From NCBI RefSeq assembly GCF_014205295.1, contig NZ_JACHNF010000001.1, positions 6,014,001 to 6,078,000 on the forward strand: a stretch of 64,000 nt of DNA, written 5' to 3'. This DNA comes from Kribbella solani. Its GTDB lineage: Bacteria; Actinomycetota; Actinomycetes; Propionibacteriales; Kribbellaceae. Shown one piece after another: positions 5,792 to 34,576 of the stretch. The position numbers and the translations under genes were made by a program. Every line of letters begins with the position of its first letter. Position 1 is the first letter of the stretch. The notes beneath the pieces were generated by a model. It saw nothing but the letters and a program-made list of their open reading frames with translations, did no database searches and had not been told where the DNA came from.

Positions 5792-6886
5792 TCAGTGGGT
5801 GGGCGGGGCGGCTACCGAGCCGCGCTCGATCAGGGTCGGGGTGAGCGTGGTACGCCGGACCCGGCGGTTGGTGTCGACCGCGGAGGTGACGCGGGCGACG
5901 ACGTGACTGACCAGGGCGTCGAGTGGCCAGTGGAACGTCGACAGGGGTGGCGTGAGCAGCTGCGACATCGGCTGGTCGTCGTAGCCGAGCAGCGAGAGGT
6001 CGTCCGGGATGCGCAGGCCGAGCTCACGGGCGGCCGCGTACACGCCGAAGGCCATCGAGTCGGCGAGCGCGAGGATGCCGGTCGGGCGCGACGGACCGGT
6101 CAGCAGCGTACGGGCGACCTCGGTGGCGCCGGCCAGATCATGCGGACACTGCAGCAACTGCAACCGCAGACCAAGCTCCCCAGCCACCCGCTGCGCGAGT
6201 TCTTCAGCCGGCCGCCAGGCCACCGGCCGAGGCTGAACAGCATCAGACTGCTCCACGTCCAACCGGTGGGTCGAGGTGGGTGCGGCGAGATCGCCTTGGC
6301 CGGCGGCGAGCCGGCGGGTTGGGATGAGGATGGCGAGGTCGTGGTGGCCGGCGGTGGTGAGGCGGCGGAGGGCTGTGGTGACGCCGGTCTCGTTGTCGAG
6401 GACGACCTCGGACTTTGCCTTCGCGCCCGGCAGGGCGTCGCCGATCGCGATCACCGGTGCCTGCTCGGCGATCTCCGCCCAGCCCTTCGCGGCCGGGTCG
6501 ATCGGGATCACCACGATCGCGTCGGCGCGGTGGTCGACCAGGTGCTGGGCGAGCTCGAGTTGCCGGTCGGCATCGCCGGCCGAGTCGATGATCCAGGCGT
6601 TCCGGTCCGGGGCGAGCAGCTCGCGGCCGAGCGCGGCGGCGACCCGTTGCTGCCACAGGTCCTCCAGCGACGCGCACAGTACGCCGACCGAGCCGCTGCG
6701 CCCGGAGGCGAGCGCCCGCGCGACCGGATCGGCCTGGTACCCGAGCCGGTCGGCCGCGTCCTGAACCCGCTGCCGGGTCTCCGGCGTGCCGTGCAGACCA
6801 CGCAGCGCGTACGACACGGCGGCCATCGAGAGCCCGGTCTCGGCGGCGATGTCCTTGAGGGTTGGCCTGCGGCCGGTTCCGGACAT
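5792..6886 (-). CDS. LacI-family transcriptional regulator
   Basis: 364 residues from ATG at 6886. The N-terminus carries a LacI helix-turn-helix (TLKDIAAETGLSMAAVSYAL, residues 9-28) and hinge, followed by a periplasmic-binding-protein-like effector domain (starting near GSVGVLCASLEDLWQQ). The upstream extension of the frame toward 7369 overlaps the divergent gene and is rejected. It is divergent from the amidohydrolase gene, and two identical palindromes typical of LacI operators lie between them, so it very likely controls that operon and possibly itself. The effector is probably a sugar-like or small organic molecule, but cannot be named. Confidence 0.88.
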   Translation of the reverse strand: MSGTGRRPTLKDIAAETGLSMAAVSYALRGLHGTPETRQRVQDAADRLGYQADPVARALASGRSGSVGVLCASLEDLWQQRVAAALGRELLAPDRNAWIIDSAGDADRQLELAQHLVDHRADAIVVIPIDPAAKGWAEIAEQAPVIAIGDALPGAKAKSEVVLDNETGVTTALRRLTTAGHHDLAILIPTRRLAAGQGDLAAPTSTHRLDVEQSDAVQPRPVAWRPAEELAQRVAGELGLRLQLLQCPHDLAGATEVARTLLTGPSRPTGILALADSMAFGVYAAARELGLRIPDDLSLLGYDDQPMSQLLTPPLSTFHWPLDALVSHVVARVTSAVDTNRRVRRTTLTPTLIERGSVAAPPTH

Positions 6887-6920
6887 GCCCACGACCCTAG
6901 CCGGGGGTACGGACAGAAAC

Positions 6921-6972
6921 TTGACAGGACGCCCTTTGAAGCGCTTCACTTGGTACACGCTGAAGCGCTTCA
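6921..6972 (+). promoter_or_regulatory. Twin LacI operators and promoter of the amidohydrolase operon
   Basis: TGAAGCGCTTCA occurs twice exactly, at 6937-6948 and 6961-6972, centres 24 bp apart (about two helical turns). A perfect -35 TTGACA lies at 6921-6926. No good -10 is obvious; TTCACT (6945-6950) at 18-base spacing would lie inside the first operator. The downstream gene has GAGGA 7 bases before its ATG. The layout predicts tight repression by the divergent LacI protein. Confidence 0.75.
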
Positions 6973-6997
6973 ATTTGATCAAACCGAGGAGCGGTCG

Positions 6998-7900
6998 ATG
7001 ATCGACGTCCACCAGCACCTCTGGCCGGAGGCTTTCGTGGACCGGCTCCGGGCTCGCCGGCAGCCGCCGTACCTGACCGGCTGGACGCTGCACACCGCGA
7101 CCGAGGCGCCGTACGACGTGGACCCCGCCGCGCACGAGCTCGGCAAGCGGGTCGCGCTGGAGCAGGACCTCGGTACGACGCTGGCGGCCGTGTCGCTGTC
7201 GAGCCCGCTGGGTGTCGAGCACCTCGGTGACGAAGAGCTGCTGACCGCCTGGCACGCCGGGGCGGCGGAGTTCCCGAAGCCGTTCCGCGCCTGGGCTTCG
7301 GTGAACCTGCTGGAGCCGGACGTCGAAGAGCTGAAATCCCTGCTGGCCAAGGGCTTTCTCGGCCTGCAACTACCCGCGCACGTGCTCGGTACGCCGGCCG
7401 GCTGGGATGCCGTCGGTGAGCTGCTGCGTACGGCCGAGCTGTCCGGCCGGCCGATCCTGGTGCACCCCGGCGTGGCTGACCAGACCGATGGTCCCGGTTG
7501 GTGGGCGCCCGTCGTCGACTACACCGCACAGTTGCAGGCCGCATGGTGGGCCTGGCACGCGTACGGGGGCCGGCGCGCGTACCCCGAGCTGCGGATGTGT
7601 TTCGTCGCGGCGGCCGGGCTCGCGCCCGTACACCACGAGCGGCTGACCGCGCGCGGCGGACGGCTCGGCACCATCGACCCGAAGTTGTACGTCGACACCT
7701 CGAGCTACGGCCCGCAGGGGATCGACGCGGTCGCGCGAGTCCTCGGTATCGACCAGGTCGTGCACGGCACCGACCGGCCGTACGCGGGGATCACCGACCT
7801 TCGCCAGGGCGACGCCGCGACCGCGGTGATCCGCCACGACAACCCGCACCGGCTCTTGTTCGGTGCCGGATTCCCACCTCCTGAGAGGGGAGTGCAGTGA
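6998..7900 (+). CDS. Metal-dependent amidohydrolase (amidohydrolase-2-like)
   Basis: 300 residues from ATG at 6998. It begins with the metal-binding pattern DVHQHLW (residues 3-9) of the TIM-barrel amidohydrolase superfamily, has VHPGVAD in the middle and HGTDRPYA near the C-terminus, which supplies the late Asp. This resembles the PF04909 group, which includes decarboxylases and lactone hydrolases. The stop overlaps the start of the next gene (GTGA), so the two are translationally coupled. The LacI regulator and operators in front suggest a catabolic, inducible function acting with the cupin enzyme. The substrate is unknown. Confidence 0.75.
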   Translation: MIDVHQHLWPEAFVDRLRARRQPPYLTGWTLHTATEAPYDVDPAAHELGKRVALEQDLGTTLAAVSLSSPLGVEHLGDEELLTAWHAGAAEFPKPFRAWASVNLLEPDVEELKSLLAKGFLGLQLPAHVLGTPAGWDAVGELLRTAELSGRPILVHPGVADQTDGPGWWAPVVDYTAQLQAAWWAWHAYGGRRAYPELRMCFVAAAGLAPVHHERLTARGGRLGTIDPKLYVDTSSYGPQGIDAVARVLGIDQVVHGTDRPYAGITDLRQGDAATAVIRHDNPHRLLFGAGFPPPERGVQ

Positions 7901-8457
7901 CTGCTCAGCCCATCGATGTACCTGACATCCCGGCCCGCCAGGCCAGCCGCCTCGTGGAGCTGAACAACTGTCTGTCGCTGGACGACCTGCCCGGCCGCGA
8001 CCTGACCCCGGCCGAGCTCTCCGAGCTGGCCGCGTCGATCGCCGCGCAGCCGCAGCTGTGGGAGGACAAGGTCGCGTACAGCGACGAGGAGCGCGTGTTC
8101 GCCTCGCTGCACCGCGACGCCAACGTCGACGTGTGGCTGATCTGCTGGACGCCCGTCAACGACACCGGCTGGCACGACCACGACGTCTCGTCCGGCGCGG
8201 TCGCGGTCGCGAAGGGCAAGCTGGTCGAGCACAACCTCGCCATCGGGACCGACTCGATCGAGACCGAGGTCTCGGCCGGGGACGTGTACGGCTTCGGGCC
8301 GGACCACATTCACCGGTTGACCGGGCTCGACAAGGGCAGTGTCACCGTGCACGCGTACAGTCCGCCGCTGTGGCGGATGGGTCAGTACACCGCGAAGGAC
8401 GGTGTACTTCGGCGCATCTCCGTCTCGTACGCCGATGAGCTCCGCCCGCTGGACTGA
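7897..8457 (+). CDS. Cysteine dioxygenase-like cupin protein
   Basis: 186 residues from GTG at 7897, overlapping the previous stop by 4 bases. The sequence TGWHDHDVSSGAVAVAKG carries the two His of the first cupin motif and PDHIHRLTG supplies the third, matching the cysteine dioxygenase type I family (PF05995), which binds Fe(II) with three His. Bacterial CDO-like proteins also oxidise 3-mercaptopropionate or other thiols, so cysteine is not certain. Its coupling to an amidohydrolase under LacI control is unusual for cysteine catabolism. Confidence 0.7.
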   Translation: MTAQPIDVPDIPARQASRLVELNNCLSLDDLPGRDLTPAELSELAASIAAQPQLWEDKVAYSDEERVFASLHRDANVDVWLICWTPVNDTGWHDHDVSSGAVAVAKGKLVEHNLAIGTDSIETEVSAGDVYGFGPDHIHRLTGLDKGSVTVHAYSPPLWRMGQYTAKDGVLRRISVSYADELRPLD

Positions 8458-18671: not shown

Positions 18672-18697
18672 GGAATTTAGGGAGCGCCTCGACGGTT
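18672..18697 (+). promoter_or_regulatory. SigR/SigH-type promoter of rpmE2
   Basis: GGAAT at 18672-18676 is followed after exactly 18 bases by GTT at 18695-18697, matching the GGAAT-N18-GTT consensus of actinobacterial SigR/SigH sigma factors. The rpmE2 start codon lies 73 bases further on. In Streptomyces an L31 gene is reported as a SigR target, which fits. I see no Zur-box palindrome here. Confidence 0.55.
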
Positions 18698-18770
18698 ATG
18701 TGGTCCGTGCGGATGAACCGGTCCACCCCTTGACCGATCCGTCCGCTCCCTACTTGGAAGGAAGTTCAGC

Positions 18771-19016
18771 ATGCAGAAGGACATTCATCCCGACTACCGC
18801 CGGGTCGTCTTCCGGGACAAGTCCGGCAACTTCAGCTTCCTCACCGGCTCGACCCGCGAGAGCACCCAGACCGTGGTCTGGGAGGACGGCAATACCTACC
18901 CGGTCGTCGACGTCGAGATCTCGTCCGCCAGCCACCCGTTCTACACGGGTCAGCAGCGCGTGATGGACACCCAGGGCCGCGTGGAGAAGTTCAAGAAGCG
19001 CTACGGCAAGCAGTAA
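18771..19016 (+). CDS. rpmE2: Ribosomal protein bL31, type B (zinc-free form)
   Basis: 81 residues beginning [19 protein letters not shown] and containing the family sequence [12 protein letters not shown]. The Cys pairs of zinc-binding L31 are absent, so this is the type B paralogue, which can replace the zinc form on the 50S subunit when zinc is scarce or thiols are oxidised. GGAAGGA lies about 8 bases before the ATG. It is a single gene with its own promoter and terminator. Confidence 0.95.
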
Positions 19017-19024
19017 CACCCGAT

Positions 19025-19053
19025 CAGCCCGCCACCGTCCTGGTGGCGGGCTG
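19025..19053 (+). terminator. Terminator of rpmE2
   Basis: A perfect 12-bp GC-rich stem (19025-19036 with 19042-19053) and a 5-base loop, 9 bases after the stop codon, followed by ACCTTTG. Confidence 0.88.
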
Positions 19054-19141
19054 ACCTTTGCCTGGCTGATGTCTCGTATTTCAGATACCGAGCTGGGCGC
19101 GGCGCTTACCCCCGGGGTGGGGGTGGTTTCACACTGTGGGG

Positions 19142-20563
19142 ATGGAACCGGTGGAGCTCACGGGTGCCGGCCTCAGTCCGCTGGAGGCGGTGGCGCTCGG
19201 GCAGCGGCGTACGGCGGTACGCCTGGGGGAGGTCGCGCGGAAGCGGATGCTGGCTTCGGCGGCCGTGGTGGCCGCGGTGTCGGAGCGGCGGCCGGTGTAC
19301 GGGCGGACGACCGGCGTCGGCGCGAACCGGGACGTACTGACCGCGGACCCGGAGCACGGCGCGCGACTGCTCGGTTCGCATTCGACCACCGGTACGACCT
19401 CGTACCCGAAGGACGTCGTGCGGGTCGGCCTGCTGATCCGGGTCAACCAGCTGGCCGCCGGTGGGTCCGGGCTCGATCCGGCGGTGGCCGACGCGATCAT
19501 TGGGCTGCTCAACGACGATGACCTGCCCGACCTGCATCGTGGTGGTGCGATCGGTACCGGCGACCTCGGTCCGCTGGCCGAGCTCGGGCTCGCGCTGGGC
19601 GACGTGATCGACGGTACGAGCGCGCTGCCGCTGCTCTCCAGCAACGCGTTCACGTTGGCCGAATGCTGCCTGGCGTACGTGGAAGCGTCGACGCTGATCA
19701 ACGTCGTACCGCTGGTCGGCGCACTTTCGCACGTCGCGCTTCGCGGCAACGCCGAGGTGTACGACACCCGCGTCCACGAAGCGCGGCCGCAACCGGGACA
19801 GGTCCGCGTCGCGCGGCGGATGCGGGAACTGCTCGACGGGCTGCCGCTGCGGCCGGCCCGGGTGCAGGACCCGTTCGGCCTGCGGGCGTTCGCGCAGGTG
19901 CTCGGCCCGGCCGTCGACCATTCCGATGCCCTGGGCAACAGTGTGCGGATCGACATCAACGCGGCCGCCGAGAACCCGCTGGTGGCCGGCGACACCGTAC
20001 TGCACAACGGCAACTGGCACGCGATGCCGATCGCGCTCGCGCTCGACTCGCTCCGGCTCAGCCTGCACAGCGTCGCGACCCTGTCGACCACCCGGGTCGC
20101 GAACCTGGTCGACCCCGACTACACCGGCCTCAGCCGCTTCCTGGCCAGCGGTGCCGAGGCGAGCTCCGGCGTGATGATGATCGAGTACGTGGCGCACGAC
20201 GCGCTGGCCGCGGTCCGCTCCGCCGCCCAGCCGGCCACCCTGGGTACGGCGACCCTGTCCCGCGGCGCCGAACTGCACGCCAGCTTCGCACCACAAGCCG
20301 CCGCGCTCACCTCACAACTCCTGGACGCGCTCCGCGAAGTCCTCGCCAGCGAACTGGTCACCGCGGTCCGCGCGATCCGCCTGGCCGGGCTCACCCCCAA
20401 AGCGCTGGCCCCCGCGGCCGTCGGCCCGTGGCTGACCGACGCCCTGGCCGCTCTCCCCGACGACCTGGCCGACCGCTCCCTCCGCGAGGACCTGGAAATC
20501 GCCCGCGGTCTGTTGACCCAATGGGGCGACCGGCAAGTTGAACATCCGGCGGAGGCCGGCTAA
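19142..20563 (+). CDS. Divergent histidine/aromatic ammonia-lyase homologue with altered MIO triad
   Basis: 473 residues from ATG at 19142 (GTG at 19136 is also in frame). The whole chain aligns with the HAL/PAL family: YGRTTGVG with the usual catalytic Tyr, QDPFGLRAF, AENPLV and HNGNWHAMP. The segment that normally reads GASGDLAPLAH reads IGTGDLGPLAE, so the MIO-forming Ala-Ser-Gly is Gly138-Thr139-Gly140. The Tyr of QDxYSLR is Phe245, and the LINGT motif reads LSSNAF. Serine is needed for normal MIO formation, so standard ammonia-lyase chemistry is doubtful. A real hutH lies 4 kb away. An imperfect palindrome (CTCGTAT/ATACCGAG, 19073-19092) precedes it. It could be a pseudoenzyme or use a different mechanism. 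Confidence 0.75.
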   Translation: MEPVELTGAGLSPLEAVALGQRRTAVRLGEVARKRMLASAAVVAAVSERRPVYGRTTGVGANRDVLTADPEHGARLLGSHSTTGTTSYPKDVVRVGLLIRVNQLAAGGSGLDPAVADAIIGLLNDDDLPDLHRGGAIGTGDLGPLAELGLALGDVIDGTSALPLLSSNAFTLAECCLAYVEASTLINVVPLVGALSHVALRGNAEVYDTRVHEARPQPGQVRVARRMRELLDGLPLRPARVQDPFGLRAFAQVLGPAVDHSDALGNSVRIDINAAAENPLVAGDTVLHNGNWHAMPIALALDSLRLSLHSVATLSTTRVANLVDPDYTGLSRFLASGAEASSGVMMIEYVAHDALAAVRSAAQPATLGTATLSRGAELHASFAPQAAALTSQLLDALREVLASELVTAVRAIRLAGLTPKALAPAAVGPWLTDALAALPDDLADRSLREDLEIARGLLTQWGDRQVEHPAEAG

Positions 20564-20564
20564 C

Positions 20565-20646
20565 GACAGGAGGTTGTCTGACCCGCCGGCGACGGTCACG
20601 CTCAGCGCAGCGCGCCGACGGGTCAGATCCGGCACTACCTCCTGTC
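20565..20646. terminator. Large bidirectional stem-loop between convergent genes
   Basis: Nested arms pair GACAGGAGGT (20565-20574) with ACCTCCTGTC (20637-20646), CTGACCCG (20578-20585) with CGGGTCAG (20619-20626) and CGGCG with CGCCG. It lies between the stop codons of the lyase homologue and the reverse-strand hydrolase, so it can serve both. Confidence 0.8.
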
Positions 20647-20647
20647 C

Positions 20648-21859
20648 TTACAGCTGCCGGAGGTCGAACGCGGCAGCCATCGCCTTGAAGCCGGCCGCGT
20701 TCGGGTGCAGGTGGTCGCCCGCGTCGTACGCCGGCAGGAACTTCGACGGAGCCGCCGGATCCCGCGTGGCCTTGTCGAAGTCCACCACCCCGTCGTACTC
20801 ACCCGAGGTCCGGATCCACGTGTTCAGCGCCTGCCGATCGGCCTCACCTTCCGGGGTGTAATACCCGGCCCCTTCGTACGGCGTCAGGGTCGCGCCGATC
20901 ACCTTCAGCCCGGCCTGGTGCGCGCGCCGGATGAACTGCCGATGGATCGCGATCAGGTCCGCCGGATCGGTCGCGCCACGGCTGTTCCCGATGTCGTTGA
21001 TGCCTTCCAGCAGGACAACCGTCCGTACACCGGTCTGCCCGATCACGTCCCGATCGAAGCGCGCCAGCGTCGAGTCACCCGCCGTACCCGCGTTCGCGAG
21101 CAGACGGTTGCCGCTGATGCCGGCGTTCAGTACGCCGAGCTCCCGCGCCGGTGGGGCGGCCAGCAGCCGGTCGGCGAGCTGATCCGGGTACCGCAGGTTC
21201 TTGTCCACCGGCGACACCACCCCGTCGGTGATCGAGTCGCCGAACAGAACGACGGACCCGCGTACGCGACTCTGCACGTCCACACCTTCGATGATGTACC
21301 GCGCCGCACCCGGGATCGCCTGGTACGCCGACCCGTCACCGCCGGTCTGATCACCGGCCGCCGAGAACCCGGTCGCGTACCCGGCCGGATGCTGCGTGAG
21401 CGGACCGGTCGGCCCGGGGAAGTACGTGCTGATCACCAGATCGGTGTCCTCCGGTACGACAACGCGGACCGGATCGGACACCCACTCGGACCCGACCGGG
21501 ATCGTCACCGAAGCACGCCCGTCGAACAGCACAGGCACCAACTTCGCCGGGTCCACCGTGGGCGTACCCGCTTGTGCATCACCGCGTGGCGTCACACTCA
21601 CTTTTCCGACCACGAGCGGGCGCGTTCCGTACACATGGGACAGCCGCAACCGGACCTGCGCCCCACCAACCGACAGATGCGCGACCTGCCGAAGGGTCGT
21701 GTCGGTGACGCCGGTAGCCGACAGTCCGGACGTCCCCGGCGGCGTAACCGCAACCGACCAACTACCAACCCACCCGGCGGGCTGCACCGCTGTCGCACTC
21801 GGCGTGACAAACCCACCAACCAGAACAACCACAAGAGCCAACCACTTGAACCGACGCAT
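20648..21859 (-). CDS. Secreted SGNH/GDSL-family hydrolase
   Basis: 403 residues from ATG at 21859, preceded by AAGGTGG. A signal peptide (MRRFKWLALVVVLVGG, cleavage near ATAVQPA) is followed by a beta-rich N-terminal region (about 35-195) and an SGNH esterase domain with block I VLFGDSITDG, block II NAGISGNR, block III EGINDIG and block V DHLHPN. These give the Ser-Asp-His triad. Such two-domain secreted enzymes are lipases or carbohydrate esterases; the substrate is unknown. Confidence 0.87.
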   Translation of the reverse strand: MRRFKWLALVVVLVGGFVTPSATAVQPAGWVGSWSVAVTPPGTSGLSATGVTDTTLRQVAHLSVGGAQVRLRLSHVYGTRPLVVGKVSVTPRGDAQAGTPTVDPAKLVPVLFDGRASVTIPVGSEWVSDPVRVVVPEDTDLVISTYFPGPTGPLTQHPAGYATGFSAAGDQTGGDGSAYQAIPGAARYIIEGVDVQSRVRGSVVLFGDSITDGVVSPVDKNLRYPDQLADRLLAAPPARELGVLNAGISGNRLLANAGTAGDSTLARFDRDVIGQTGVRTVVLLEGINDIGNSRGATDPADLIAIHRQFIRRAHQAGLKVIGATLTPYEGAGYYTPEGEADRQALNTWIRTSGEYDGVVDFDKATRDPAAPSKFLPAYDAGDHLHPNAAGFKAMAAAFDLRQL

Positions 21860-21971: not shown

Positions 21972-22730
21972 TCAACCGTGCAGGCGGCGGGTTAGTGCGG
22001 TGGCGGCTTGGTGGATTTTGTGGGCCAGGTGGGGGCGGTCGGTGGTGGGGACGGTATCGGTGCGGAAAGTGACGCTGATGGCAGCTACTGGGTGGCCGGA
22101 GTGGTCGAGGGCGGCGCTGGCTACCGTGGCGACGCCGGGGGTGATGAATGAGTCCTCGACCGCGAAACCCTGGCGTTTCTCGTCGGCCAGGAGGCGGCGG
22201 AGCTGGGTCAGGGATTGGGGGCCCTGGTCGGTGCGGCGGACGAACGACTCAGGGTCGGGGAACAGCGCCCGGACCTGAGCGGGTGGCAGCTCGGCGAGTA
22301 AGGCGCGGCCGGAGGCGGTCAGGGTGGCGGGGAGGCGTACGCCGACGTCCGTGACCAGTGTGACCGGCCGCGGCGGCTGTTCCTTGAGCAGGTAGACAAG
22401 CTCACGCCCGTGCAGTACGCCGAGGTGCGCGGTCTGTCCGACCTCGTGGACCAGCTGCACCAACAGTGGTCGCGCCAACCGTTCCAGCGGGTCGTGCCGC
22501 AAGTACGCGGAGCCGATCTCGAACGCGGCCACCCCCAGCCCGTACCGCTTCTCTTCGGGCAGATGGACGACGAAACCTTCGTCGATCATTGCCCGCAGCA
22601 AGTGGTACGTGGACGAGCGTGGCAGTCCGACCGCGGAGGCGATGCGCTCCATCGGTACCGGACCGGGCTGTGTGGCCAGGAACGTCAGCACCCGCAACGT
22701 GCGGGTCGAGGCGGGAACGTTGCCGCTCAC
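21972..22730 (-). CDS. IclR-family transcriptional regulator
   Basis: 252 residues: an N-terminal winged helix (VPMERIASAVGLPRSSTYHLLRAM, residues about 25-48) and a C-terminal effector-binding domain (about 75-250) containing TASGRALLAEL and EDSFITPGVATVASAALDHSG. It lies 1.2 kb upstream of hutH on the opposite strand. An 18-bp palindrome before hutH is a plausible binding site, so it is a candidate regulator of histidine use. This link is inferred from position only. Confidence 0.88.
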   Translation of the reverse strand: MSGNVPASTRTLRVLTFLATQPGPVPMERIASAVGLPRSSTYHLLRAMIDEGFVVHLPEEKRYGLGVAAFEIGSAYLRHDPLERLARPLLVQLVHEVGQTAHLGVLHGRELVYLLKEQPPRPVTLVTDVGVRLPATLTASGRALLAELPPAQVRALFPDPESFVRRTDQGPQSLTQLRRLLADEKRQGFAVEDSFITPGVATVASAALDHSGHPVAAISVTFRTDTVPTTDRPHLAHKIHQAATALTRRLHG

Positions 22731-23959: not shown

Positions 23960-25501
23960 GTGGAGAACACGGTGATTGTCGGCGTCGGCCCGCTGACCCC
24001 GGCCGAAGTGGTCGCGGTCGCGCGGTACGGCGCGCAGGTACGGATCGACGACCAGGCGCTGGAGGAGATCGCGAAGTCGCGGGCCGCGATCGAGGCACTG
24101 GCCCATGCGGACACCCCGCACTACGGCGTCTCGACCGGTTTCGGCGCGCTCGCGACCCGGCACATCGCGCCGGAGCTGCGGGCCCAGTTGCAGCGCAGCC
24201 TGATCCGCTCGCACGCGGCCGGCTCCGGCCCGGAGGTCGAGCCCGAGGTCGTCCGCGCCCTCGCGCTGCTGCGGCTGTCCACCCTCGCGACCGGACGTAC
24301 CGGGGTGAAGGTCGAGACCGCGCAGGCGTACGCCGGGCTGCTCAACGCCAACCTGACTCCGGTCGTGCACGAGTACGGCAGCCTCGGCTGTTCCGGCGAT
24401 CTCGCGCCGCTGTCGCATGTCGCGCTGGCGATCCTCGGCGAAGGCAAGGTCCGTGATGCCGACGGCAACCTTCTCGACGCCGGCGAGGCGCTGCGCGCGC
24501 ACGGTCTGACGCCGATCGTGCTGGCGGAGAAGGAAGGTCTGGCGCTGATCAACGGCACCGACGGGATGCTCGGCATGCTGGTGCTCGCGCTCGCCGACCT
24601 GGACCGGCTGTTCCGGACCGCCGACCTCGCCGCCGCGATGAGCGTCGAAGCCCAGCTCGGCACCGATCGGGTGTTCGCCGCGGACCTGCAGGCCCTGCGG
24701 CCGCACCCCGGCCAGGCCGCGGCGGCCGCGAACCTGCGCGCGATCCTCAAGGACAGCGCGATCGTCGCCAGCCACCGTGGTCCGGACTGCAACCGGGTCC
24801 AGGACGCGTACTCGCTCCGGTGCTCGCCGCAGGTTCACGGCGCCGCCCGTGACACCGCCGCCCACGCGAAGAACGTCGCGGCCAACGAGCTCCAGGCCGC
24901 GATCGACAACCCGGTCGTGCTGCCGGACGGCCGGGTCGAGTCGAACGGCAACTTCCACGGCGCCCCGATCGGGTACGTGCTGGACTTCCTCGCGATCGCC
25001 GTCGCGGACCTGGCGAGTATCAGCGAACGCCGCACCGACCGCTTCCTCGACGTCGCCCGCAACCACGGTCTGAACGCGTTCCTGGCCGACGATCCGGGCG
25101 TCGACAGCGGTCACATGATCGCGCAGTACACGCAGGCCGCGATCGTGTCCGAGCTGAAGCGGCTGGCCGTACCCGCGAGCGTCGACTCGATCCCGAGCAG
25201 CGCGATGCAGGAGGACCACGTCTCGATGGGCTGGTCGGCCGCACGCAAGCTGCGCAAGGCCGTCGACGGCCTGCAGCGGGTGCTCGCGATCGAGATCCTG
25301 ACCGCCGCGCGGGCACTCGACCTGCGCGCCCCGCTCACGCCCGCACCGGCGACGGCCGCCGCCCAAGCGGCGCTGCGGCAGTACGTCGATGGTCCGGCCA
25401 CCGACCGGTTCCTCGCCCCCGAGCTCGAACACTCCGTCCAACTCGTTGCCAATGGCACCTACATCGAAGCCGTCGAGACCGTCACCGGTCCGCTGAATTG
25501 A
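23960..25501 (+). CDS. hutH: Histidine ammonia-lyase
   Basis: 513 residues from GTG at 23960. The N-terminus MENTVIVG aligns with that of Streptomyces HutH; GTG at 23972, with GGAG 6 bases upstream, is an alternative. It removes ammonia from histidine to give urocanate. The MIO triad is Cys144-Ser145-Gly146 in GSLGCSGDLAPLSH, the form usual for actinobacterial enzymes. The other active-site regions are intact: HYGVSTGFG, LINGTDGML, QDAYSLRCSPQ and SNGNFHGAPI. It heads the hut gene group and is followed by hutU after 15 bases. Confidence 0.97.
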   Translation: MENTVIVGVGPLTPAEVVAVARYGAQVRIDDQALEEIAKSRAAIEALAHADTPHYGVSTGFGALATRHIAPELRAQLQRSLIRSHAAGSGPEVEPEVVRALALLRLSTLATGRTGVKVETAQAYAGLLNANLTPVVHEYGSLGCSGDLAPLSHVALAILGEGKVRDADGNLLDAGEALRAHGLTPIVLAEKEGLALINGTDGMLGMLVLALADLDRLFRTADLAAAMSVEAQLGTDRVFAADLQALRPHPGQAAAAANLRAILKDSAIVASHRGPDCNRVQDAYSLRCSPQVHGAARDTAAHAKNVAANELQAAIDNPVVLPDGRVESNGNFHGAPIGYVLDFLAIAVADLASISERRTDRFLDVARNHGLNAFLADDPGVDSGHMIAQYTQAAIVSELKRLAVPASVDSIPSSAMQEDHVSMGWSAARKLRKAVDGLQRVLAIEILTAARALDLRAPLTPAPATAAAQAALRQYVDGPATDRFLAPELEHSVQLVANGTYIEAVETVTGPLN

Positions 25502-25516
25502 GAGGCTGGATCACCC

Positions 25517-27172
25517 ATGTCCGGACCACGTCCCGTCCGCGCGCCCCGCGGTACCACCCTGACCGCTCGCGGCTGGCAGCAGGAGGCAGCGCTGCGGATG
25601 CTGCAGAACAACCTCGACCCGGAGGTCGCCGAGCACCCCGACGAGCTGGTCGTGTACGGCGGTTCCGGCAAGGCCGCGCGGGACTGGAACTCGTTCGACG
25701 CGATGGTCCGGACGCTGACCACGCTGAAGGACGACGAGACCATGCTGGTCCAGTCCGGCCGCCCGGTCGGGGTGATGCGGACACATGAGTGGGCGCCGCG
25801 GGTACTGATCGCGAACTCGAACCTGGTCGGCGACTGGGCCACCTGGGAGGAGTTCCGCAAACTAGAGGCGATGGGGCTGACCATGTACGGCCAGATGACG
25901 GCCGGGTCGTGGATCTACATCGGCACCCAGGGCATCCTGCAGGGTACGTACGAGACGTTCGGCGCGGTCGCGGAGAAGAAGTTCGACGGCTCGCTGGCCG
26001 GTACGGTCACGCTGACCGCGGGCCTCGGCGGAATGGGCGGCGCGCAGCCGCTGGCCGTGACGATGAACGACGGCGTGGCGATCTGCATCGACGTCGACGA
26101 GTCGCGCATCCAGCGCCGGATCGAGCACCGCTACCTGGACGTCCGCGCGTCCTCCGTCGATGAAGCGCTTCAACTGGCCGAAGAGGCGAAGAAGGCGCGG
26201 CGGCCGTTGTCGATCGGCGTGCTCGGCAACGCCGCGACGATCGTGCCGGACCTGCTCAAGCGGGGTGCGCCGATCGACGTCGTCACCGACCAGACCTCGG
26301 CACACGACCCGTTGATGTACCTGCCGGTCGGCGTCGAGTTCGACGACTGGGCGGCCGCGCGGGAGAAGGACCCGGCCGGGTTCACCGAGCGGGCGCAGGA
26401 GTCGATGGCCCGGCACGTCCAGGCGATGGTCGAGTTCCAGGACGCGGGCGCCGAGGTGTTCGACTACGGCAACTCGATCCGGGACGAGGCGCGCAAGGCC
26501 GGGTACGCCCGCGCGTTCGAGTTCCCCGGTTTCGTACCGGCGTACATCCGGCCGCTGTTCTGCGAAGGAAAAGGCCCGTTCCGGTGGGCGGCGCTGTCGG
26601 GTAATCCGGCCGACATCGCCAAGACGGACCAGGCGATCCTGGACCTGTTCCCGGAGAACGAGCACCTGAGCCGCTGGATCAAGCTGGCCGGGGAGCGGGT
26701 CGCCTTCCAGGGGCTGCCGGCCCGGATCTGCTGGCTCGGCCAGGGCGAGCGGGACAAGGCCGGCGTCCGGTTCAACGACATGGTGGCGTCGGGTGAACTC
26801 GAGGCGCCGATCGTGATCGGCCGGGACCACCTGGACACCGGCAGCGTGGCGTCGCCCTACCGGGAGACCGAAGGCATGCTGGACGGCTCGGACGCGATCG
26901 CGGACTGGCCGTTGCTGAACGCGATGGTGAACGTGTCCAGCGGCGCGTCCTGGGTGTCGATCCACCACGGCGGCGGCGTCGGCATCGGCCGGTCCATCCA
27001 CGCCGGTCAGGTGTCGGTTGCCGACGGCACCGACCTGGCCCGGCAGAAGCTGCAGCGGGTACTGACGAACGATCCGGCGATGGGTGTGATCCGTCACGTC
27101 GACGCCGGCTACGACCAGGCGGCCGAGGTCGCGGCCGAGCGTGGCGTCCGGGTTCCGATGCGGGAAAGCTGA
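25517..27172 (+). CDS. hutU: Urocanate hydratase
   Basis: 551 residues, normal length. It adds water to urocanate to form imidazolone propionate, using tightly bound NAD+. It shows the family sequences [23 protein letters not shown] and the catalytic-region Cys405 in [17 protein letters not shown] precedes the ATG. It forms an operon with hutH. Confidence 0.98.
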
Positions 27173-27304: not shown

Positions 27305-28303
27305 ATGATCGAGTTCGAGGACGTCACCAAGCAGTATCCGGACGGCACCGTCGCCGTCGACAAACTGTCCCTGCGGATCCCGAGCAACCAGATCACCGTG
27401 TTCGTCGGCCCGTCCGGCTGCGGCAAGACCACGTCGCTGCGGATGATCAACCGGACCATCGAACGGTCCGGTGGCACGATCTCGATCGACGGGGAGGACA
27501 TCAACTCCCAGGACGCGGTCACGCTGCGGCGCGGCATCGGGTACGTGATCCAGAACGCCGGACTGTTCCCGCACAAGACAGTGGTGGACAACATCGCCAC
27601 CGTGCCGAAACTGCTCGGCTGGGACAAGCGCAAGGCGCGCGGTACGGCGATGGAACTGCTGGAACGCGTCGGCCTGGAAACCAAGATGGCCGAGCGGTAC
27701 CCGGCGCAACTGTCCGGTGGGCAGCAGCAACGCGTCGGCGTCGCCCGTGCCCTCGCGGCCGATCCCAAGATCATGTTGATGGACGAGCCGTTCAGCGCCG
27801 TCGACCCGATCGTCAGGCATCAGCTGCAAGAGGAGCTGCTGCGCCTGCAACGCGACATCGGCAAGACGATCGTGTTCGTCACGCATGACATCGACGAGGC
27901 GATCAAGCTCGGCGACAACGTGGCAGTACTGCAGGTGGGCGGGAAGCTGGCGCAGTTCGCGCCGCCGGCCGAGCTGCTGGCGAACCCGGTCGACGATTTC
28001 GTCCGTGGGTTCGTCGGGCAGGACCGCGGTTACCGGGCGCTGACGTTCGTACACCCGGAGAACCTGGCGGTGCGGCCGCTGCCGGACGAGCTGGCGTTGC
28101 GCGACGGCGTACCTGTCGGGTGGCGGAACGGCTCCGAAGAGCTGCTGCCGGTCGGCGCGGTCTTCAAACGCGGCGACTCGTTGCGCGCGGCCCTCGACGC
28201 CGTCCTCACCTCGCCCACCGGCTGCGGAATCTGCGTCGACGACGACGGCAAGGCCATCGGCGTCATCGACCAGGCAGCCGTTGCGGAAGCGCTTCGCCCA
28301 TGA
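27305..28303 (+). CDS. ABC transporter ATPase, quaternary-ammonium (OpuC/ProV/HutV) type
   Basis: 332 residues: Walker A GPSGCGKTT, Q-loop IQNAGLFPH, signature LSGGQQQRVG and Walker B IMLMDEPFSAVD, followed by a C-terminal extension that looks like CBS or regulatory sequence (about 245-330). The ATPase belongs to the glycine betaine/choline/proline group. Its place inside the hut genes recalls HutV of proteobacterial HutXWV histidine importers, which come from the same family. It may import histidine, urocanate or osmolytes. It overlaps the permease gene by ATGA. Confidence 0.88.
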   Translation: MIEFEDVTKQYPDGTVAVDKLSLRIPSNQITVFVGPSGCGKTTSLRMINRTIERSGGTISIDGEDINSQDAVTLRRGIGYVIQNAGLFPHKTVVDNIATVPKLLGWDKRKARGTAMELLERVGLETKMAERYPAQLSGGQQQRVGVARALAADPKIMLMDEPFSAVDPIVRHQLQEELLRLQRDIGKTIVFVTHDIDEAIKLGDNVAVLQVGGKLAQFAPPAELLANPVDDFVRGFVGQDRGYRALTFVHPENLAVRPLPDELALRDGVPVGWRNGSEELLPVGAVFKRGDSLRAALDAVLTSPTGCGICVDDDGKAIGVIDQAAVAEALRP

Positions 28304-28956
28304 CGTGGATCGGCGACAATCTCGGGCTGATCTGGGAGCAACTGCGGGAGCATCTGTACCTGGCGATCCTGCCGGTCATTCTCGGGCTGATCATCTCGGT
28401 GCCGCTCGGGTACGTCGCGACCCGCTACGCCTGGCTGGCCAACCCGCTGATCGCATTCGGCGGCATCCTGTACTCGCTGCCGTCGATCGCGCTGTTCATC
28501 GTGCTGCCGGCGATCCTCGGGACCAAGGTGCTGTCCGAGGTGAACATCGTGGTGGCACTGACCATCTACACCGTGTCGCTGCTGATCCGGAACGTGATCG
28601 ACGGACTCCGATCCGTGCCACCGGACGTACGCCAATCGGCGATCGCGGTCGGGTACGGATCGATGCACCGGCTGGTCGCGATCGACCTGCCGATCGCGGT
28701 GCCGGTGATCTTCACCGGACTGCGCGTGGTCACGGTCGCGAACATCTCGATGGTGAGCGTCGGCGCGGTGATCGGGATCGGCGGCCTGGGTGAGCTGTTC
28801 ACGCTCGGCTTCCAGAAGGCGTTCCTGACGCCGGTCGTGGTCGGCGTGGTGCTCTCGCTGGCGCTGGCGTTGCTCGCGGACTTCGTCCTGGTGACCCTGC
28901 AACGGGTGCTGACCCCGTGGACCCGCGTCGTGGCGCCCGTAGGGGAGGTGGCGTGA
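28300..28956 (+). CDS. ABC transporter permease (OpuC-type, first)
   Basis: 218 residues from ATG at 28300, overlapping the ATPase stop. It has about five or six membrane spans and the cytoplasmic EAA-like loop near RSVPPDVRQSAIAVGYGSMHRLVAIDLP, which docks on the ATPase. This is one of two permeases of the osmoprotectant-type importer. Confidence 0.88.
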   Translation: MTWIGDNLGLIWEQLREHLYLAILPVILGLIISVPLGYVATRYAWLANPLIAFGGILYSLPSIALFIVLPAILGTKVLSEVNIVVALTIYTVSLLIRNVIDGLRSVPPDVRQSAIAVGYGSMHRLVAIDLPIAVPVIFTGLRVVTVANISMVSVGAVIGIGGLGELFTLGFQKAFLTPVVVGVVLSLALALLADFVLVTLQRVLTPWTRVVAPVGEVA

Positions 28957-28957
28957 C

Positions 28958-29608
28958 ATGTGGCAGTTCCTGACCGACTCGTACAACTGGTCCGGCAACG
29001 AAGGCATCTGGGCGCGGATCGTCGAACACCTCTGGTACACGTTTGCCGCGCTCGGCCTGTCGGTGCTGATCGGACTGCCGATCGGCCTCCGGATCGGGCA
29101 CACCCGGCGTGGCGCGTTCCTTGCCATCAACACCGGCAACGCGGCCCGCGCGCTGCCCAGCCTCGGCCTGCTGATGCTGGCGGTGCTGCTGACCGACCAG
29201 ATCGGCTTCCTGCCCGTACTGATCGCCCTGGTCGCGCTCGGAATCCCGCCCATCCTCGCCTCGACGTACGCGGGACTGTCCGGTGTCGATCCGGCCACGA
29301 TCGACGCCGCTCGTGGCATGGGGATGACCGGGCGGGAGATTCTGACCAAGGTGGAGATCCCGATCGGGCTGCCGCTGATCATCTCCGGCATCCGCAGCGC
29401 CACCCTGCAGATCGTCTCCACCGCGACCATCGCGGCGCTGGTGTCCCTCGGCGGGCTCGGCCGGTACGTGATCGACGGGCTGAAGCTGCGCGACTTCCCG
29501 CAGATGTTCACCGGCGCGCTGCTGGTGGCCCTGATGGCGCTGCTGCTGGACGCGTTGTTCGCGCTGATCGGGCGGATCACCGTCTCACCGGGACTGAAAA
29601 CCGGCTGA
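28958..29608 (+). CDS. ABC transporter permease (OpuC-type, second)
   Basis: 216 residues from ATG at 28958, one base after the previous stop. It has about six membrane spans and an EAA-like loop DAARGMGMTGREILTKVEIP. It pairs with the preceding permease, giving the two-permease layout of OpuC/OsmU systems, in contrast to the single permease of HutXWV. Confidence 0.88.
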   Translation: MWQFLTDSYNWSGNEGIWARIVEHLWYTFAALGLSVLIGLPIGLRIGHTRRGAFLAINTGNAARALPSLGLLMLAVLLTDQIGFLPVLIALVALGIPPILASTYAGLSGVDPATIDAARGMGMTGREILTKVEIPIGLPLIISGIRSATLQIVSTATIAALVSLGGLGRYVIDGLKLRDFPQMFTGALLVALMALLLDALFALIGRITVSPGLKTG

Positions 29609-29687: not shown

Positions 29688-30611
29688 GTGTTGAGATCCA
29701 CACTCATCCGTACCGCGATCGCCGGCGTGGCGGTCCTCGGCCTGGCCGGCTGTGGGGGTGGGGGCGACCAGCTCGGCAGCGGCAACGCGGGGTCCTCGCC
29801 CGCGCCGTCCAAGGTGACCAGCATCACCGTCGGGTCCGCGGACTTCTCCGAGAGCCAGCTGCTGGCGGAGATCTACGGGCAGGCGCTTGCCGCCAAGGGC
29901 ATCGACGTGAAGAAGAAGCCGAACATCGGCAACCGCGAGACGTACATGGCGGCAATCAAGGACGGGTCCGTCGACCTGGTGCCGGAGTACACCGGCGCCG
30001 CGCTGGCGTACTTCGACAAGAACTCCACCGAGACCGACCCGCAGAAGGCGTACGACGCGCTGAAGAAGGCGCTGCCGTCCGGGCTGGAGATCCTGGAGAT
30101 GTCGCCGGCCGCCGACGAGGACACCATCGTGGTGACCAAGGCGACCGCCGACAAGTACAACCTGAAGTCGATCGGTGACCTGAAGGGGAAGAACCTGGTC
30201 GCCGGTGGCAGCTCCGAGTTCAAGGTCCGGACCGCCGGGCTGAAGGGCATGAAGGAGAAGTACGACGTCGACTTCAAGGACTACAAGACGCTGGACGCGG
30301 GCGGCCCGCTGAGCATCAAGGCGCTGGAGGACAACACCATCCAGGTGACCGACCTGTTCACCACCCAGGCCGTGATCAAGGACAAGGGCTGGGTGCAGCT
30401 GGAGGACCCGGAGAACATCCTGCCGCCGAACAACATCGTTCCGCTGATCCGTACCGACCACAAGTCCGACGACGTCGCCAAGACACTGAACGCGGTCGAC
30501 GCCAAGCTGACCACCGACGACCTGACCGCGCTGGTCAAGCGGATGGACGTCGGCAAGGAGAGCGCGGACGCGGTCGCGAAGGACTGGCTGTCGAAGAACC
30601 CGCTGTCCTGA
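29688..30611 (+). CDS. Substrate-binding lipoprotein of the OpuC/OsmX type
   Basis: 307 residues from GTG at 29688 with CTGGAGG upstream. It has a lipoprotein signal ending LAGC with Cys22, then a Gly/Ser linker. The mature protein has GSADFSESQLLAEIYGQAL and LVPEYTGAAL, typical of the OpuAC/QAT binding-protein family (PF04069). It delivers substrate to the two permeases. The aromatic cage residues that would separate betaine from histidine-like ligands cannot be assigned by eye. Confidence 0.88.
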   Translation: MLRSTLIRTAIAGVAVLGLAGCGGGGDQLGSGNAGSSPAPSKVTSITVGSADFSESQLLAEIYGQALAAKGIDVKKKPNIGNRETYMAAIKDGSVDLVPEYTGAALAYFDKNSTETDPQKAYDALKKALPSGLEILEMSPAADEDTIVVTKATADKYNLKSIGDLKGKNLVAGGSSEFKVRTAGLKGMKEKYDVDFKDYKTLDAGGPLSIKALEDNTIQVTDLFTTQAVIKDKGWVQLEDPENILPPNNIVPLIRTDHKSDDVAKTLNAVDAKLTTDDLTALVKRMDVGKESADAVAKDWLSKNPLS

Positions 30612-30621: not shown

Positions 30622-32061
30622 GTGAGCTTCGAATCCCTCTGGGCCGACCAGTCGGCCATCGGCCGCCACCCCGAAACCGGCGGCTACACCCGAGGCGGCT
30701 GGACCCCCAGCGAACGCGAGGCGACGCACTGGTTCCTGAACCAGTGCGCCACCCGCAACCTGACAGTCGAATCCGACGGCATCGGCAACCACATCGCCTG
30801 GTGGAACCCGCGCGGAGAGCCGGTCCACCGGCCGGCTCCCCGCGTGGGCGGTACCGCACAGCCGACTTACCCCGGTGGTCCGGGTGCGCGCCCCGGTGAC
30901 CCGGGCAGTGGTGTCGGTGACCGGGGCACGGGTGTCGGTGCCTCGGGCTCACGTGTCGGTGACCCGGGGTCAGGCGCAGGTGCTTCGTACGCAGTTGCCG
31001 GTGGGGATGCTGGATGGAGCGGTTCTTCTGCTTCGCCGGGCGGGGAGCCGGCCGGAGGGCCGGCTTTCCGGCCGGGGGTTGTCACTGGGAGTCATTTGGA
31101 CTCGGTGATTGATGGTGGGGCTTTTGATGGGCCGCTGGGGGTGGTTTCGGCTTTGGCGGCTGTGGATCGGTTGCGGGCGGAGGGGTTCGAGCCGGGCGTG
31201 CCGATCGGCATCGGGGCGTTTGTGGAAGAAGAAGGGTCGCGGTTCGGGATGCCTTGTCTGGGGTCCCGCATCGCGGCCGGAGTACTGCCTGCTGAGAAGG
31301 CACTGCGGTTGACGGATCGCACGGGTGTCGAGCTGCGGCAGGCGCTGGAAGAGGCCGGGATCGACCCGGCCGGCGTCGGCCCGTCCCCACTGATGCAGCG
31401 AATGGGGACGTTCGTCGAGCTGCACGTCGAGCAGGGCCGCGGACTGACCGCACCCGTCGGAGTCGCGAGCTCGATCTGGCCGCACGGGCGGTACCGGTTC
31501 ACGTTCACCGGCGAGGCGAACCACGCCGGCACGACCCTGATGGAAGACCGGCACGACCCCATGCTCACGTACGCGATGACCGCGCTGGCCGCGAACAAGC
31601 AGGCCCGGCTGGCCGGCGCCCGCGCCACCTTCGGCCGGGTCGCGGTCGAACCGAACGGCACCAACGCGATCCCGTCCCAGGTAACGGCATGGCTGGACGC
31701 CCGCGCCGCCGACACCGCCACCCTCGAATCGTTGCTCGCGGCAATCACCAGGCTATCCACCGAACGCGCCGAGCGCGACGGCACCACCGTCGAGGTGACG
31801 GCGGAGTCCGTCTCACCGATCGTCGACTTCCCGGCCGGTCTCCGCGATCGCCTGTCCGACGTACTGGGCGGCGCCCCGGTGCTCCCGACCGGCGCCGGTC
31901 ACGACGCCGGCGTGTTTTCCGCGGCCGGCATCCCGACCGCGATGCTCTTCGTCCGGAACCCGACCGGCGTATCCCATTCACCCGCCGAGTACGCCGAACC
32001 GGACGACTGTCTCGCCGGCGTCGAGGCGCTGGCCGCCGTACTGAAGGACCTCGCGAAGTGA
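30622..32061 (+). CDS. M20-family amidohydrolase (allantoate/N-carbamoyl amino acid hydrolase type) with repeat insertion
   Basis: 479 residues, about 70 longer than usual. The metal and catalytic sites of the M20 amidase group are intact: TGSHLDSV with His158 and Asp160, GAFDGPLGV, EEEGSRF, ELHVEQG, a dimerisation domain with NHAGTT, and the late His in GVSHSPAEY. Between GNHIAWWNP (ending near residue 65) and VVTGSHLDS a Gly/Pro-rich insertion of about 80 residues contains a 7-residue tandem repeat. It starts 10 bases after the binding-protein gene and overlaps hutF by GTGA. In this place it may hydrolyse N-formylglutamate, the HutF product, since hutG is absent. Annotation as allantoate hydrolase would not fit the context. 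Confidence 0.8.
   Translation: MSFESLWADQSAIGRHPETGGYTRGGWTPSEREATHWFLNQCATRNLTVESDGIGNHIAWWNPRGEPVHRPAPRVGGTAQPTYPGGPGARPGDPGSGVGDRGTGVGASGSRVGDPGSGAGASYAVAGGDAGWSGSSASPGGEPAGGPAFRPGVVTGSHLDSVIDGGAFDGPLGVVSALAAVDRLRAEGFEPGVPIGIGAFVEEEGSRFGMPCLGSRIAAGVLPAEKALRLTDRTGVELRQALEEAGIDPAGVGPSPLMQRMGTFVELHVEQGRGLTAPVGVASSIWPHGRYRFTFTGEANHAGTTLMEDRHDPMLTYAMTALAANKQARLAGARATFGRVAVEPNGTNAIPSQVTAWLDARAADTATLESLLAAITRLSTERAERDGTTVEVTAESVSPIVDFPAGLRDRLSDVLGGAPVLPTGAGHDAGVFSAAGIPTAMLFVRNPTGVSHSPAEYAEPDDCLAGVEALAAVLKDLAK
30874..30987 (+). repeat. 21-bp in-frame tandem repeat in the M20 gene
   Basis: Five units of 21 bp and a 9-bp remnant, encoding GGPGARP, GDPGSGV, GDRGTGV, GASGSRV, GDPGSGA and GAS. Each DNA unit begins with GGT. 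Third codon positions after the array, to about 31170, are richer in T than in neighbouring genes. This is a minisatellite-like insertion close to the active-site metal ligands. Confidence 0.85.
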
Positions 32062-33404
32062 CGTCGTACTGGTGCGAGACCGCTCTCCTCCCGACCGGTC
32101 TCGCCGCGAGAGTTCTCGTCACGATCGCCGACGGTCGCTTCACCACGGTCGGGCCCGACACCGACCCGGGGGACGCGACGATCCTGCACGGCCTCGTCGT
32201 CCCCGGCCTGGCGAACTGTCACAGTCACGCGTTCCACCGCGCGCTCCGCGGCCGTACGCAGACCGAGCGTGGCACGTTCTGGACCTGGCGCGAGCAGATG
32301 TACGCCGTCGCCGCCGCGCTCACCCCGGACACGTACTACGACCTGGCGAAAGCCGTGTACGGCGAAATGCTGCTCGCCGGCATCACCGCGGTCGGCGAAT
32401 TCCACTACCTCCATCACGCCCCCGGCGGCAGTCGCTACAACGACCCGAACGCGATGGGTACGGCCCTGATCGCCGCCGCCCGCGACGTCGGGATCCGGAT
32501 CGCCCTGCTCGACACCTGCTACGTTGCCGGCGGCATCGACCAGCCGCTGAACGAGGTGCAGCAGCGCTTCAGCGACGGCGACGCGACGAGCTGGGCGTCC
32601 CGGGTCGAGCAGCTCACCGGCGCGGACATGGTGGCCGGCGCGGACGATGTGGTGATCGGGGCGGCCGCGCATTCGGTGCGGGGCGTTCCCCAGGAGCAGC
32701 TCGGCGCGGTCGCGGCCGCATTCCCTGACGTACCGCTGCATATTCATCTCTCCGAGCAGGTCGCGGAAAACGAGGCATGCCTCGCGGCGTACGGGCGTAC
32801 GCCGACGCAGATCCTCGACGAAACCGGATTCCTCAGCGAGCGGACGAGCGCAATCCATGCGACCCATCTGACCTCGGTGGATGTGGAGTTGCTGGGGAGC
32901 TCGGCGACGTACGCGTGCTTCTGCCCGACGACCGAACGTGATCTCGCGGACGGGATCGGCCCATCGGTGCAGCTGCGCGACGCGGGGTCGCCGTTGACGC
33001 TCGGGTCCGACAGTCACGCGGTGATCGACCTGTTCGAGGAGATGCGCGCGGTCGAGCTGAACGAACGCCTCGCCACCCAGGAACGCGGCCACTGGTCAGC
33101 CCCCGAGCTACTCAAGGCCGCATCCGCCGACGGCCATCAGTCAATCGGCTTCCCCGACGCCGGCGCAATCCAGGTCGGCGCTCGCGCTGATCTGGTCGCA
33201 ATCCGCCTGAACACGGTCCGCACAGCCGGCACCATCACCAGCGGAAGTTTCTCCGGGAGTGCGGAAGCTGTTGTTTTCTCGGCAACCGCCTCCGATGTTT
33301 CCGATGTCGTCGTCTCCGGCAACCATCTGGTTGCTGACAGCAATCACAATCGAATGGACGTCGCGGCCGAGCTGGCTGCCTCGATCACGGCGGTGACCCG
33401 ATGA
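32058..33404 (+). CDS. hutF: Formimidoylglutamate deiminase
   Basis: 448 residues from GTG at 32058, overlapping the M20 stop. An amidohydrolase-superfamily barrel with the metal site [18 protein letters not shown] and [11 protein letters not shown], all typical of HutF. It turns N-formimidoyl-L-glutamate into N-formyl-L-glutamate and ammonia. It overlaps hutI by ATGA. Its presence means histidine is degraded by the five-step pathway that needs a formylglutamate hydrolase. Confidence 0.96.
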
Positions 33405-34576
33405 GTACCTTGCTGCTGACCGGAATCAACTCCCTGGTCACGAACGACCCGGCCCACGGCGGCCCCCTCGGCGAGCTGCACGACGCCGCCGTGGTGATCG
33501 ACGGCGGCAAAATTGCTTGGGTCGGCCAACGACGAGACGCCCCGGCCGCCGACACCGCGCGCGACCTCGGTGGCCGCGCCGTGATCCCCGGTTTCGTGGA
33601 CTCGCATTCGCACCTGGTGTTCGCGGGCGACCGCGCCGAGGAGTTCGCCGCCCGGATGACCGGCACGCCGTACTCGGCCGGCGGCATCCGTACCACCGTC
33701 GCCGCGACCCGCGAGGCAACCGACGACCAGCTGACCGCGAACGTCGCCCGCCTCGTCGCCGAGATGCGCCGCCAGGGCACGACGACGGTCGAGATCAAAT
33801 CCGGCTACGGACTCACGGTCGCGGACGAGGCGCGCTCACTCCAGATCGCGCGCCAGTTCACCGACGAGACCACGTACCTCGGCGCGCACGTCGTACCGCT
33901 CGACTACGCCGACGACCCGGCCGCGTACGTCGAGCTGGTCACCGGTCCGATGCTCGACGCGGCGGCGAAGCACTCGAAGTGGATCGACGTCTTCGTCGAG
34001 CGCGGCGCTTTCGACGCGGATCAAGGCCGGGCGATCCTCACCGCCGGCATCGCGCGTGGCCTGCAGGCGCGGGTACACGCGAACCAGCTCGGCGAAGGCC
34101 CCGGCGTACAGCTCGCTTGCGAAGTCGGCGCGGCCGCCGCGGACCACTGCACGTACCTGACCGACGCCGACATCGACGCCCTCGCCTCGACCGGCGTCGT
34201 CGCCGGGCTGCTGCCGGCGATCGAGTTCTCCACCAGATCCCCGTACCCGAACGCCCGCCGGCTGATCGACGCCGGCGTCACCGTAGCCCTGGCCACCGAC
34301 TGCAACCCCGGCTCCGGCTACTCGTCGTCGATGCCGTTCTGCATCGCCCTAGCCGTCCGCGACATGCACCTGACCCCCGCCGAGGCCCTCTGGTCCGCCA
34401 CCGCCGGCGGCGCCACCGCCCTCCGCCGCCCCGACATCGGCCACCTGACCCCCGGCGCCCAAGCCAACCTGGCCATCCTCGACGCCCCCTCCTACCTCCA
34501 TCTCGCCTACCGCCCCGGCGTCCCCCTCATCACCCACACCCTGATCGCAGGTCGCTCCCACCCAGTGCTGAACTGA
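33401..34576 (+). CDS. hutI: Imidazolonepropionase
   Basis: 391 residues. It opens the imidazolone ring of the HutU product to give formimidoylglutamate. The metal site is seen in [14 protein letters not shown], followed by the substrate-contact sequence [17 protein letters not shown] and [16 protein letters not shown]. It is coupled to hutF by a 4-base overlap and is the last gene of the hut group. Confidence 0.97.

Follow-up and report, generated by a model that had tools for sequence, protein, structure and literature searches.

A conserved actinobacterial clade of histidine ammonia-lyase relatives without the MIO serine, possibly acting on an imported histidine betaine

Ammonia-lyases of the MIO kind (HAL, PAL and TAL) carry an Ala/Cys-Ser-Gly tripeptide, the Ser of which is needed for MIO. 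Ergothionase is a HAL-fold enzyme that removes trimethylamine from a histidine betaine (ergothioneine trimethylamine-lyase). Changing the MIO Ser to Ala decreased the activity of HAL and PAL more than a thousandfold, and abolished the MIO absorbance of RxPAL (PMC3903478). Ergothionase is stated to lack MIO in a 2026 paper that cites Maurer 2019 (PMC13405746). Among the importers of quaternary amines (OpuC and EgtU), the cage of EgtUC is given as F293, Y341, Y419, Y443 and N339 in a further article (PMC9732360).

Here we describe a gene in a 64,000-nucleotide stretch of Kribbella solani DNA, called the window, from a genome of 7.85 Mb in 2 contigs (Table 1). The open reading frame starts with ATG, with an in-frame GTG upstream at 19136, and has 0 internal stops, in agreement with the initial annotation, which called the gene otherwise intact. 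The annotation also credited it with its own upstream region and terminator. A scan of 18900-20760 returned no promoter-like or terminator-like site, and what stands of that claim is a strong hairpin lacking a U tract. Upstream, a CobW-like gene remnant of 39 codons (18655-18771), matching the gene's end, precedes an L31 gene; one relative (L001) has a 371-codon gene at this place.

The protein matches Pfam PF00221 (Lyase_aromatic) at 309 bits (E 6.5e-92, cut-off 27.3). On the other hand, two NCBIfam HAL models score it below their cut-offs, at 248 bits (cut-off 524) and 232 bits (TIGR01225, the HutH equivalog, cut-off 539). Eight NCBIfam families match the window protein and the scanned relatives, and none reaches its cut-off. 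An AlphaFold2 model from 17 alignment rows had a mean pLDDT of 50, too poor for use.

Table 1 Positions of the HAL-fold gene and of other features in the window
Feature	Position	Strand	Details
LacI regulator (-), Amidohydro_2 protein (+), CDO_I cupin (+)	5816..8457		Module adjoins the same lyase type in six other loci
HAL-fold (PF00221) gene, MIO-less by sequence, 473 aa	19142..20563	+	G138-T139-G140-D141, S166-S167-N168-A169, F245, H288, Y349
Hairpin without a U tract, where the lyase and lipase genes converge	20560..20655		z -5.0; 0/200 shuffles as good
IclR-type regulator	21972..22730	-	Together with hutH in 16/22 close-relative loci and in L089 and L094 (family codes f20 and f19)
Ordinary hutH	23960..25501	+	GSLGCSGDLAPL (CSG), NGT, QDAYSLR
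hutU, urocanate hydratase	25517..27172	+	TIGR01228, 921 bits, cut-off 375
OpuC/ProV-like ABC ATPase	27305..28303	+	Best NCBIfam model proV, 303 bits, just below cut-off 327
Two OpuC-type ABC permease genes	28300..29608 (28300-28956, 28958-29608)	+	
OpuAC-type (PF04069) substrate-binding protein	29688..30611	+	Two quaternary-amine-cage tyrosines replaced
Rest of the hut operon: M20-type amidohydrolase, hutF, hutI	30622..34576	+	

Where HAL reads GSLGCSGDL, the window protein reads GAIGTGDL, within GGAIGTGDLG. Counted from the conserved Gly135 through Asp141 in an alignment of 57 rows, the loop has 7 residues in all 20 rows of the clade containing the window protein, in 4/4 deep relatives and in 6/6 ergothionase-type rows, and its equivalent has 8 residues in 19/19 HALs. 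The position of the MIO Ser is Ser in all 19 HALs and Thr in all 20 clade rows. The change in the clade is a one-residue deletion plus a substitution of Thr for Ser. With the Ser absent and one residue fewer, the window protein falls outside the MIO ammonia-lyases. Because MIO needs the Ser and the clade lacks it, an ordinary MIO is not expected in the window protein.

The initial annotation had noticed Gly-Thr-Gly in place of Ala-Ser-Gly and the missing Ser, as well as a changed NGT motif (LLSSNAF is read at the corresponding place), and had overlooked the deletion. Its suspicion that the standard reaction had been lost or replaced by new chemistry gains support from the sequences, as the state is clade-wide. 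The remaining difference it listed, Phe245 for the Tyr of QDxYSLR, is true of the window protein (QDPFGLR) but not of the clade, in which Tyr occurs in 7/20 rows and Ala in 1/20. Because the position varies, Phe245 was dropped as a clade marker.

PDB searches returned ergothionase 6s7j of Treponema denticola among HALs, not as the top match. Its loop is SSIGEGDITT and its second motif SCNAQG, and five proteobacterial relatives (L123-L127) share the short loop and S-x-N-A. This combination of a short MIO-less loop with S-x-N-A, seen in 6/6 ergothionase-type rows (one of them characterised), is present in the window protein. Position 166 is accordingly Ser in the clade and the ergothionase group, and Asn in HAL. 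The MIO-less precedent in ergothionase means that the state of the clade is not unprecedented in the HAL fold. The clade also resembles 6s7j in its PF00221-type sequence and in having the same Tyr/His/Gln/Arg/Glu set. Tyr53, His80, Gln242, Arg248 and Glu377, which in HAL provide the base and the binding sites for the carboxylate and the imidazole, are invariant in the clade, the deep relatives, the ergothionase group and the HALs wherever sequence is present (one deep-relative row ends before position 377).

Unlike ergothionase, the clade has Thr, or Ile, where the 6s7j loop has Glu, and Ser-Gly at 342-343 as in HAL. The Lys at 6s7j position 383, present in 5/6 ergothionase-type rows (Ala in the other), is replaced by Tyr349 in 20/20 clade rows; Tyr is also found there in 19/19 HALs and in three deep rows, the fourth having Trp. 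The clade is like HAL (HutH) in family, in ring-side and carboxylate residues and in the hut genes near some of its loci. It is unlike HAL in lacking ASG or CSG, in the shorter loop, in the loss of NGT, and in having His288 for Ser and Glu277 for Asp. Glu277 is specific to the clade and deep relatives together (24/24 rows; Asp elsewhere), while His288 marks the 20 core rows; at this position three deep rows have Thr and one has Ser, 18 HALs have Ser and one has Thr, and five ergothionase-type rows have Pro and one has Val. In our reading, the active site would be a mosaic, HAL-like on the ring side and ergothionase-like on the amine side.

On an unrooted tree computed without the trait columns, the clade and the deep relatives (20 + 4 rows) form one side of a branch with support 100/99. 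The ergothionase group (6 rows) has support 100/99 and the HALs (19 rows) 83/81. The best tree keeps the clade and the ergothionase group separate, although a tree that unites them is not rejected (p-AU 0.089). The MIO-less state takes two changes on the best unrooted tree, and a single clade of the HALs and the L122 row is not rejected either (p-AU 0.33).

Other PF00221 genes met in the searches vary in the same region. A third homologue in the window's genome (L025, C1:4852114-4853448, minus strand) has no MIO tripeptide (EEGAGSAGEIIP, QAPVSFR). On two Rhizobium plasmids, the region of the MIO loop has three residues fewer than in HAL (GSAGYLTHNAH in L119, GSAGYLVHNAH in L121); the L121 gene is annotated as histidine ammonia-lyase and lies beside ABC transporter genes and hutC. 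On a Paracoccus saliphilus plasmid (L126, 6818-8506), an ergothionase-type gene annotated as aromatic amino acid ammonia-lyase directly follows hutU in a hut operon.

The loop state of the window protein is identical in 22/22 close-relative loci (21 from records named Kribbella and one from a record titled Streptomyces sp. SID13031; 86-96% identity). The gene was found in 38/38 genomes of the genus at an identity of at least 86%, with loops read in the 22 close-relative loci. Comparison with 18 orthologues of equal length gave dN/dS of 0.05-0.16 (median 0.09), indicating purifying selection; four loci one codon shorter (L008, L010, L016 and L021) were left out. Among 296 sampled genomes of the class, clade members occur in at least 22 genomes besides the window's, at 40-51% identity and in seven family codes, when the best five candidates per genome are scored (the best seven for the amidohydrolase below), so that absences are soft. 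All 22 of these wider loci carry Thr in the loop, as TG in 20 and TA in 2. Thr is also found at the MIO Ser position in Nonomuraea gerenzanensis, the best match in a plasmid collection, and among the four deep relatives, which belong to other classes of this phylum, two have Thr there and two have Ile. No MIO Ser was found among the 50 loops read (23 including the window's, 22, 4 and 1). Coverage outside Actinomycetota was by the plasmid collection and by a pattern scan of all genome contigs, which reaches close relatives only. To the question in the initial annotation of whether the GTG triad is conserved as a clade, the answer is that the short Thr loop is clade-wide, with Thr139-Gly140 in 18/20 rows and Ala replacing Gly in 2. 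By all sequence signs, the window gene belongs to an old, conserved and MIO-free clade of actinobacteria.

We conceived that the window protein could be a C-N lyase that works without MIO on an imported betaine of the histidine type, with hercynine as the best guess, yielding urocanate for HutU; as a whole, this reading falls somewhat short of an even chance. Its parts differ in strength. The protein is probably a lyase, and a histidine-derived substrate is slightly favored, while a trimethylated one is put a little lower than the whole reading. In the proposed course, the partner OpuC-type transporter would import hercynine (N,N,N-trimethylhistidine). The retained HAL-fold residues and the ergothionase-like amine side (the short loop, and Ser-Ser-Asn-Ala for Asn-Gly-Thr) would then act on an amine that is already a good leaving group, making MIO unnecessary. 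Hercynine would be split into urocanate and trimethylamine, and urocanate would pass to HutU. The combination of a HAL-like ring side, including Tyr349, with an ergothionase-like amine side suggests a substrate in which a histidine ring is joined to a readily leaving amine, as in hercynine.

Gene neighborhoods bear on this proposal in both directions. Outside the genus, 28 loci were compared, comprising 27 genome loci (two on contigs shorter than 8 kb) and Nonomuraea; each counts as an independent case even though several share one family (f21). In 20/28 the lyase has OpuC-type transporter genes nearby, mostly as a divergent operon, with the binding-protein gene just upstream of the lyase in five (L104-L107 and L112). 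hutU is within the stretch in 11/28, representing six family codes. In a locus from another class (L109), hutH, the ATPase, two permeases, the binding protein, the lyase, an amidohydrolase, hutU, hutF and hutI run in one direction. Against the hercynine reading, hutU is absent from the stretch in 17/28 loci and an OpuC gene in 8/28; six loci (L087, L097, L099, L103, L111 and L117) have neither. In the window itself, the transporter lies about 10 kb from the lyase, within the hut operon. Among close-relative loci, hutH is within the stretch in 16/22, and five of the other six stretches are shorter than 13 kb. As a separate observation, three f21 loci (L104, L106 and L112) have the lyase and binding protein beside an opposite-strand cluster in which candidate genes for a histidine kinase, a roadblock protein and a small GTPase were picked out by eye.

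The partner genes are those of OpuC and EgtU importers, i.e. an ATPase, two permeases and an OpuAC-type binding protein. In the 27 lyase genomes, 31 binding proteins score above 150 bits against the window's, and 20 of these 31 have a lyase no more than 15 kb away, compared with 1/22 of the lower-scoring ones (Fisher p 9e-6, with loci not independent and the 150-bit line drawn after the scores were seen). Proteins on different contigs were scored as not near, and the two-piece proteins of G295, G074 and G132 were joined with their bits summed. One genome with two lyase copies (G261) has such a binding protein beside each. The other 11 of the 31 were scored as not near a lyase, including second transporter copies in several f21 genomes, and this counts against the hercynine reading.

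The cage differs from that of OpuC and EgtU. As mapped by alignment to 4z7e and 6v1r rather than to EgtUC itself, the equivalents of Y341 and Y443 are lost in 15/16 full-length lyase-linked binding proteins, with Asp at the first, and only that of L109 keeps both. The window's binding protein has lost both, and three partial linked proteins have lost the second. The N339 equivalent is Asp in most lyase-linked proteins and kept in L096 and L106. Six lower-scoring OpuC-type proteins of these genomes were also read, and four of them retain both tyrosines, unlike the other two. The loss weighs against hercynine, as it fits an ammonium smaller than trimethylammonium, which the ligand may carry. Three aromatic cage positions remain, which may leave room for a betaine. 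OpuC-type systems may also carry histidine itself, a further point against hercynine. In searches of mainly open-access literature, the titles and abstract openings retrieved gave no description of this clade or of a hercynine lyase.

The strongest alternative, unlikely yet still well ahead of the others, is a MIO-free lyase whose imported substrate, other than hercynine, is a betaine or N-substituted aromatic amino acid (ergothioneine, oxidised ergothioneine, or tryptophan or tyrosine betaine). In 6/28 loci, a module of LacI, Amidohydro_2 and CDO_I genes sits next to the lyase; in the window, about 12 kb separates the two. The amidohydrolase of the module is 12-22 kb from the lyase in 36/38 genomes of the genus and on a different contig in the other two. 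In the class sample, with the best seven candidates per genome scored, it occurs in at least 13/23 lyase-bearing genomes and at least 8/273 others. As the latter have no listed lyase, the amidohydrolase also occurs alone. In G241, the lyase cluster is followed by egtD (above cut-off) and by egtB- and egtA-type genes, as judged by Pfam domains. The module and egt links leave room for an ergothioneine-related substrate. The same transporter type also adjoins another MIO-less type in L143, where the same amidohydrolase is present too, and in L166 OpuC-type transporter genes directly follow a 52% identical, putatively MIO-less relative of L025. However, egtD is present in 19/27 lyase genomes and adjacent to the lyase cluster in only 1/19, and the Lys of the ergothionase-type rows is Tyr in the clade. 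Moreover, the window's neighbor is an ordinary hutU, which the thiourocanate hydratase model scores at 677 bits, below its cut-off of 930. The genes at 5816-9284 of the window are of LacI, Amidohydro_2, CDO_I cupin and PhzF-like type, and the module made up of the first three occurs in several families of actinobacteria, both together with the lyase and apart from it.

A further alternative is a catalytically dead paralogue that regulates HutH or assembles with it, in keeping with the missing MIO. By its sequence, the window genome retains a standard MIO-type HAL, and 19/20 lyase genomes searched hold another, HAL-like PF00221 match (loop read for the window hutH and L109 only). We consider such a pseudoenzyme improbable, because the five catalytic-site residues are invariant, dN/dS is low and transporter genes are commoner neighbors than hut genes.

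Less probable again, and by a good deal, is that Gly-Thr-Gly still cyclises into an ethylidene MIO analogue. Thr139-Gly140 would offer a Gly nucleophile and a losable hydroxyl. Against this are the shorter loop, the Ile in 2/4 deep relatives and the Ala for Gly in 2/20 clade rows, and a Ser to Thr change reportedly inactivated Pseudomonas HAL. Recent decay of HAL in this strain is practically out of the question, as nothing was found in its favor, ASG, which the initial annotation would have taken as its sign in close relatives, was found in neither the 22 close-relative loci nor 22 further loci of the class, and the gene is intact, under purifying selection, present throughout the genus and part of a wider clade with no MIO Ser in 27 relatives.

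The clade proteins match PF00221 and invite annotation as HAL, yet the scanned members pass no curated NCBIfam cut-off. MIO-less branches of the HAL fold would comprise this clade, ergothionase and the L025 and L118/L143 types, and three of these four include members with an OpuC-type importer alongside. It is conceivable, though clearly less likely than the lyase assignment or a histidine-derived substrate, that the clade represents a new activity among these branches, a MIO-free hercynine trimethylamine-lyase with its own importer feeding the Hut pathway, and that the MIO loop arose when an ancestral lyase free of MIO gained one residue by insertion. If so, actinobacteria would have an unrecognised route that degrades histidine betaines with release of trimethylamine. 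The HAL fold would then have a broad MIO-free side, and how MIO arose could be tested by setting loops that have the extra residue against those that lack it.
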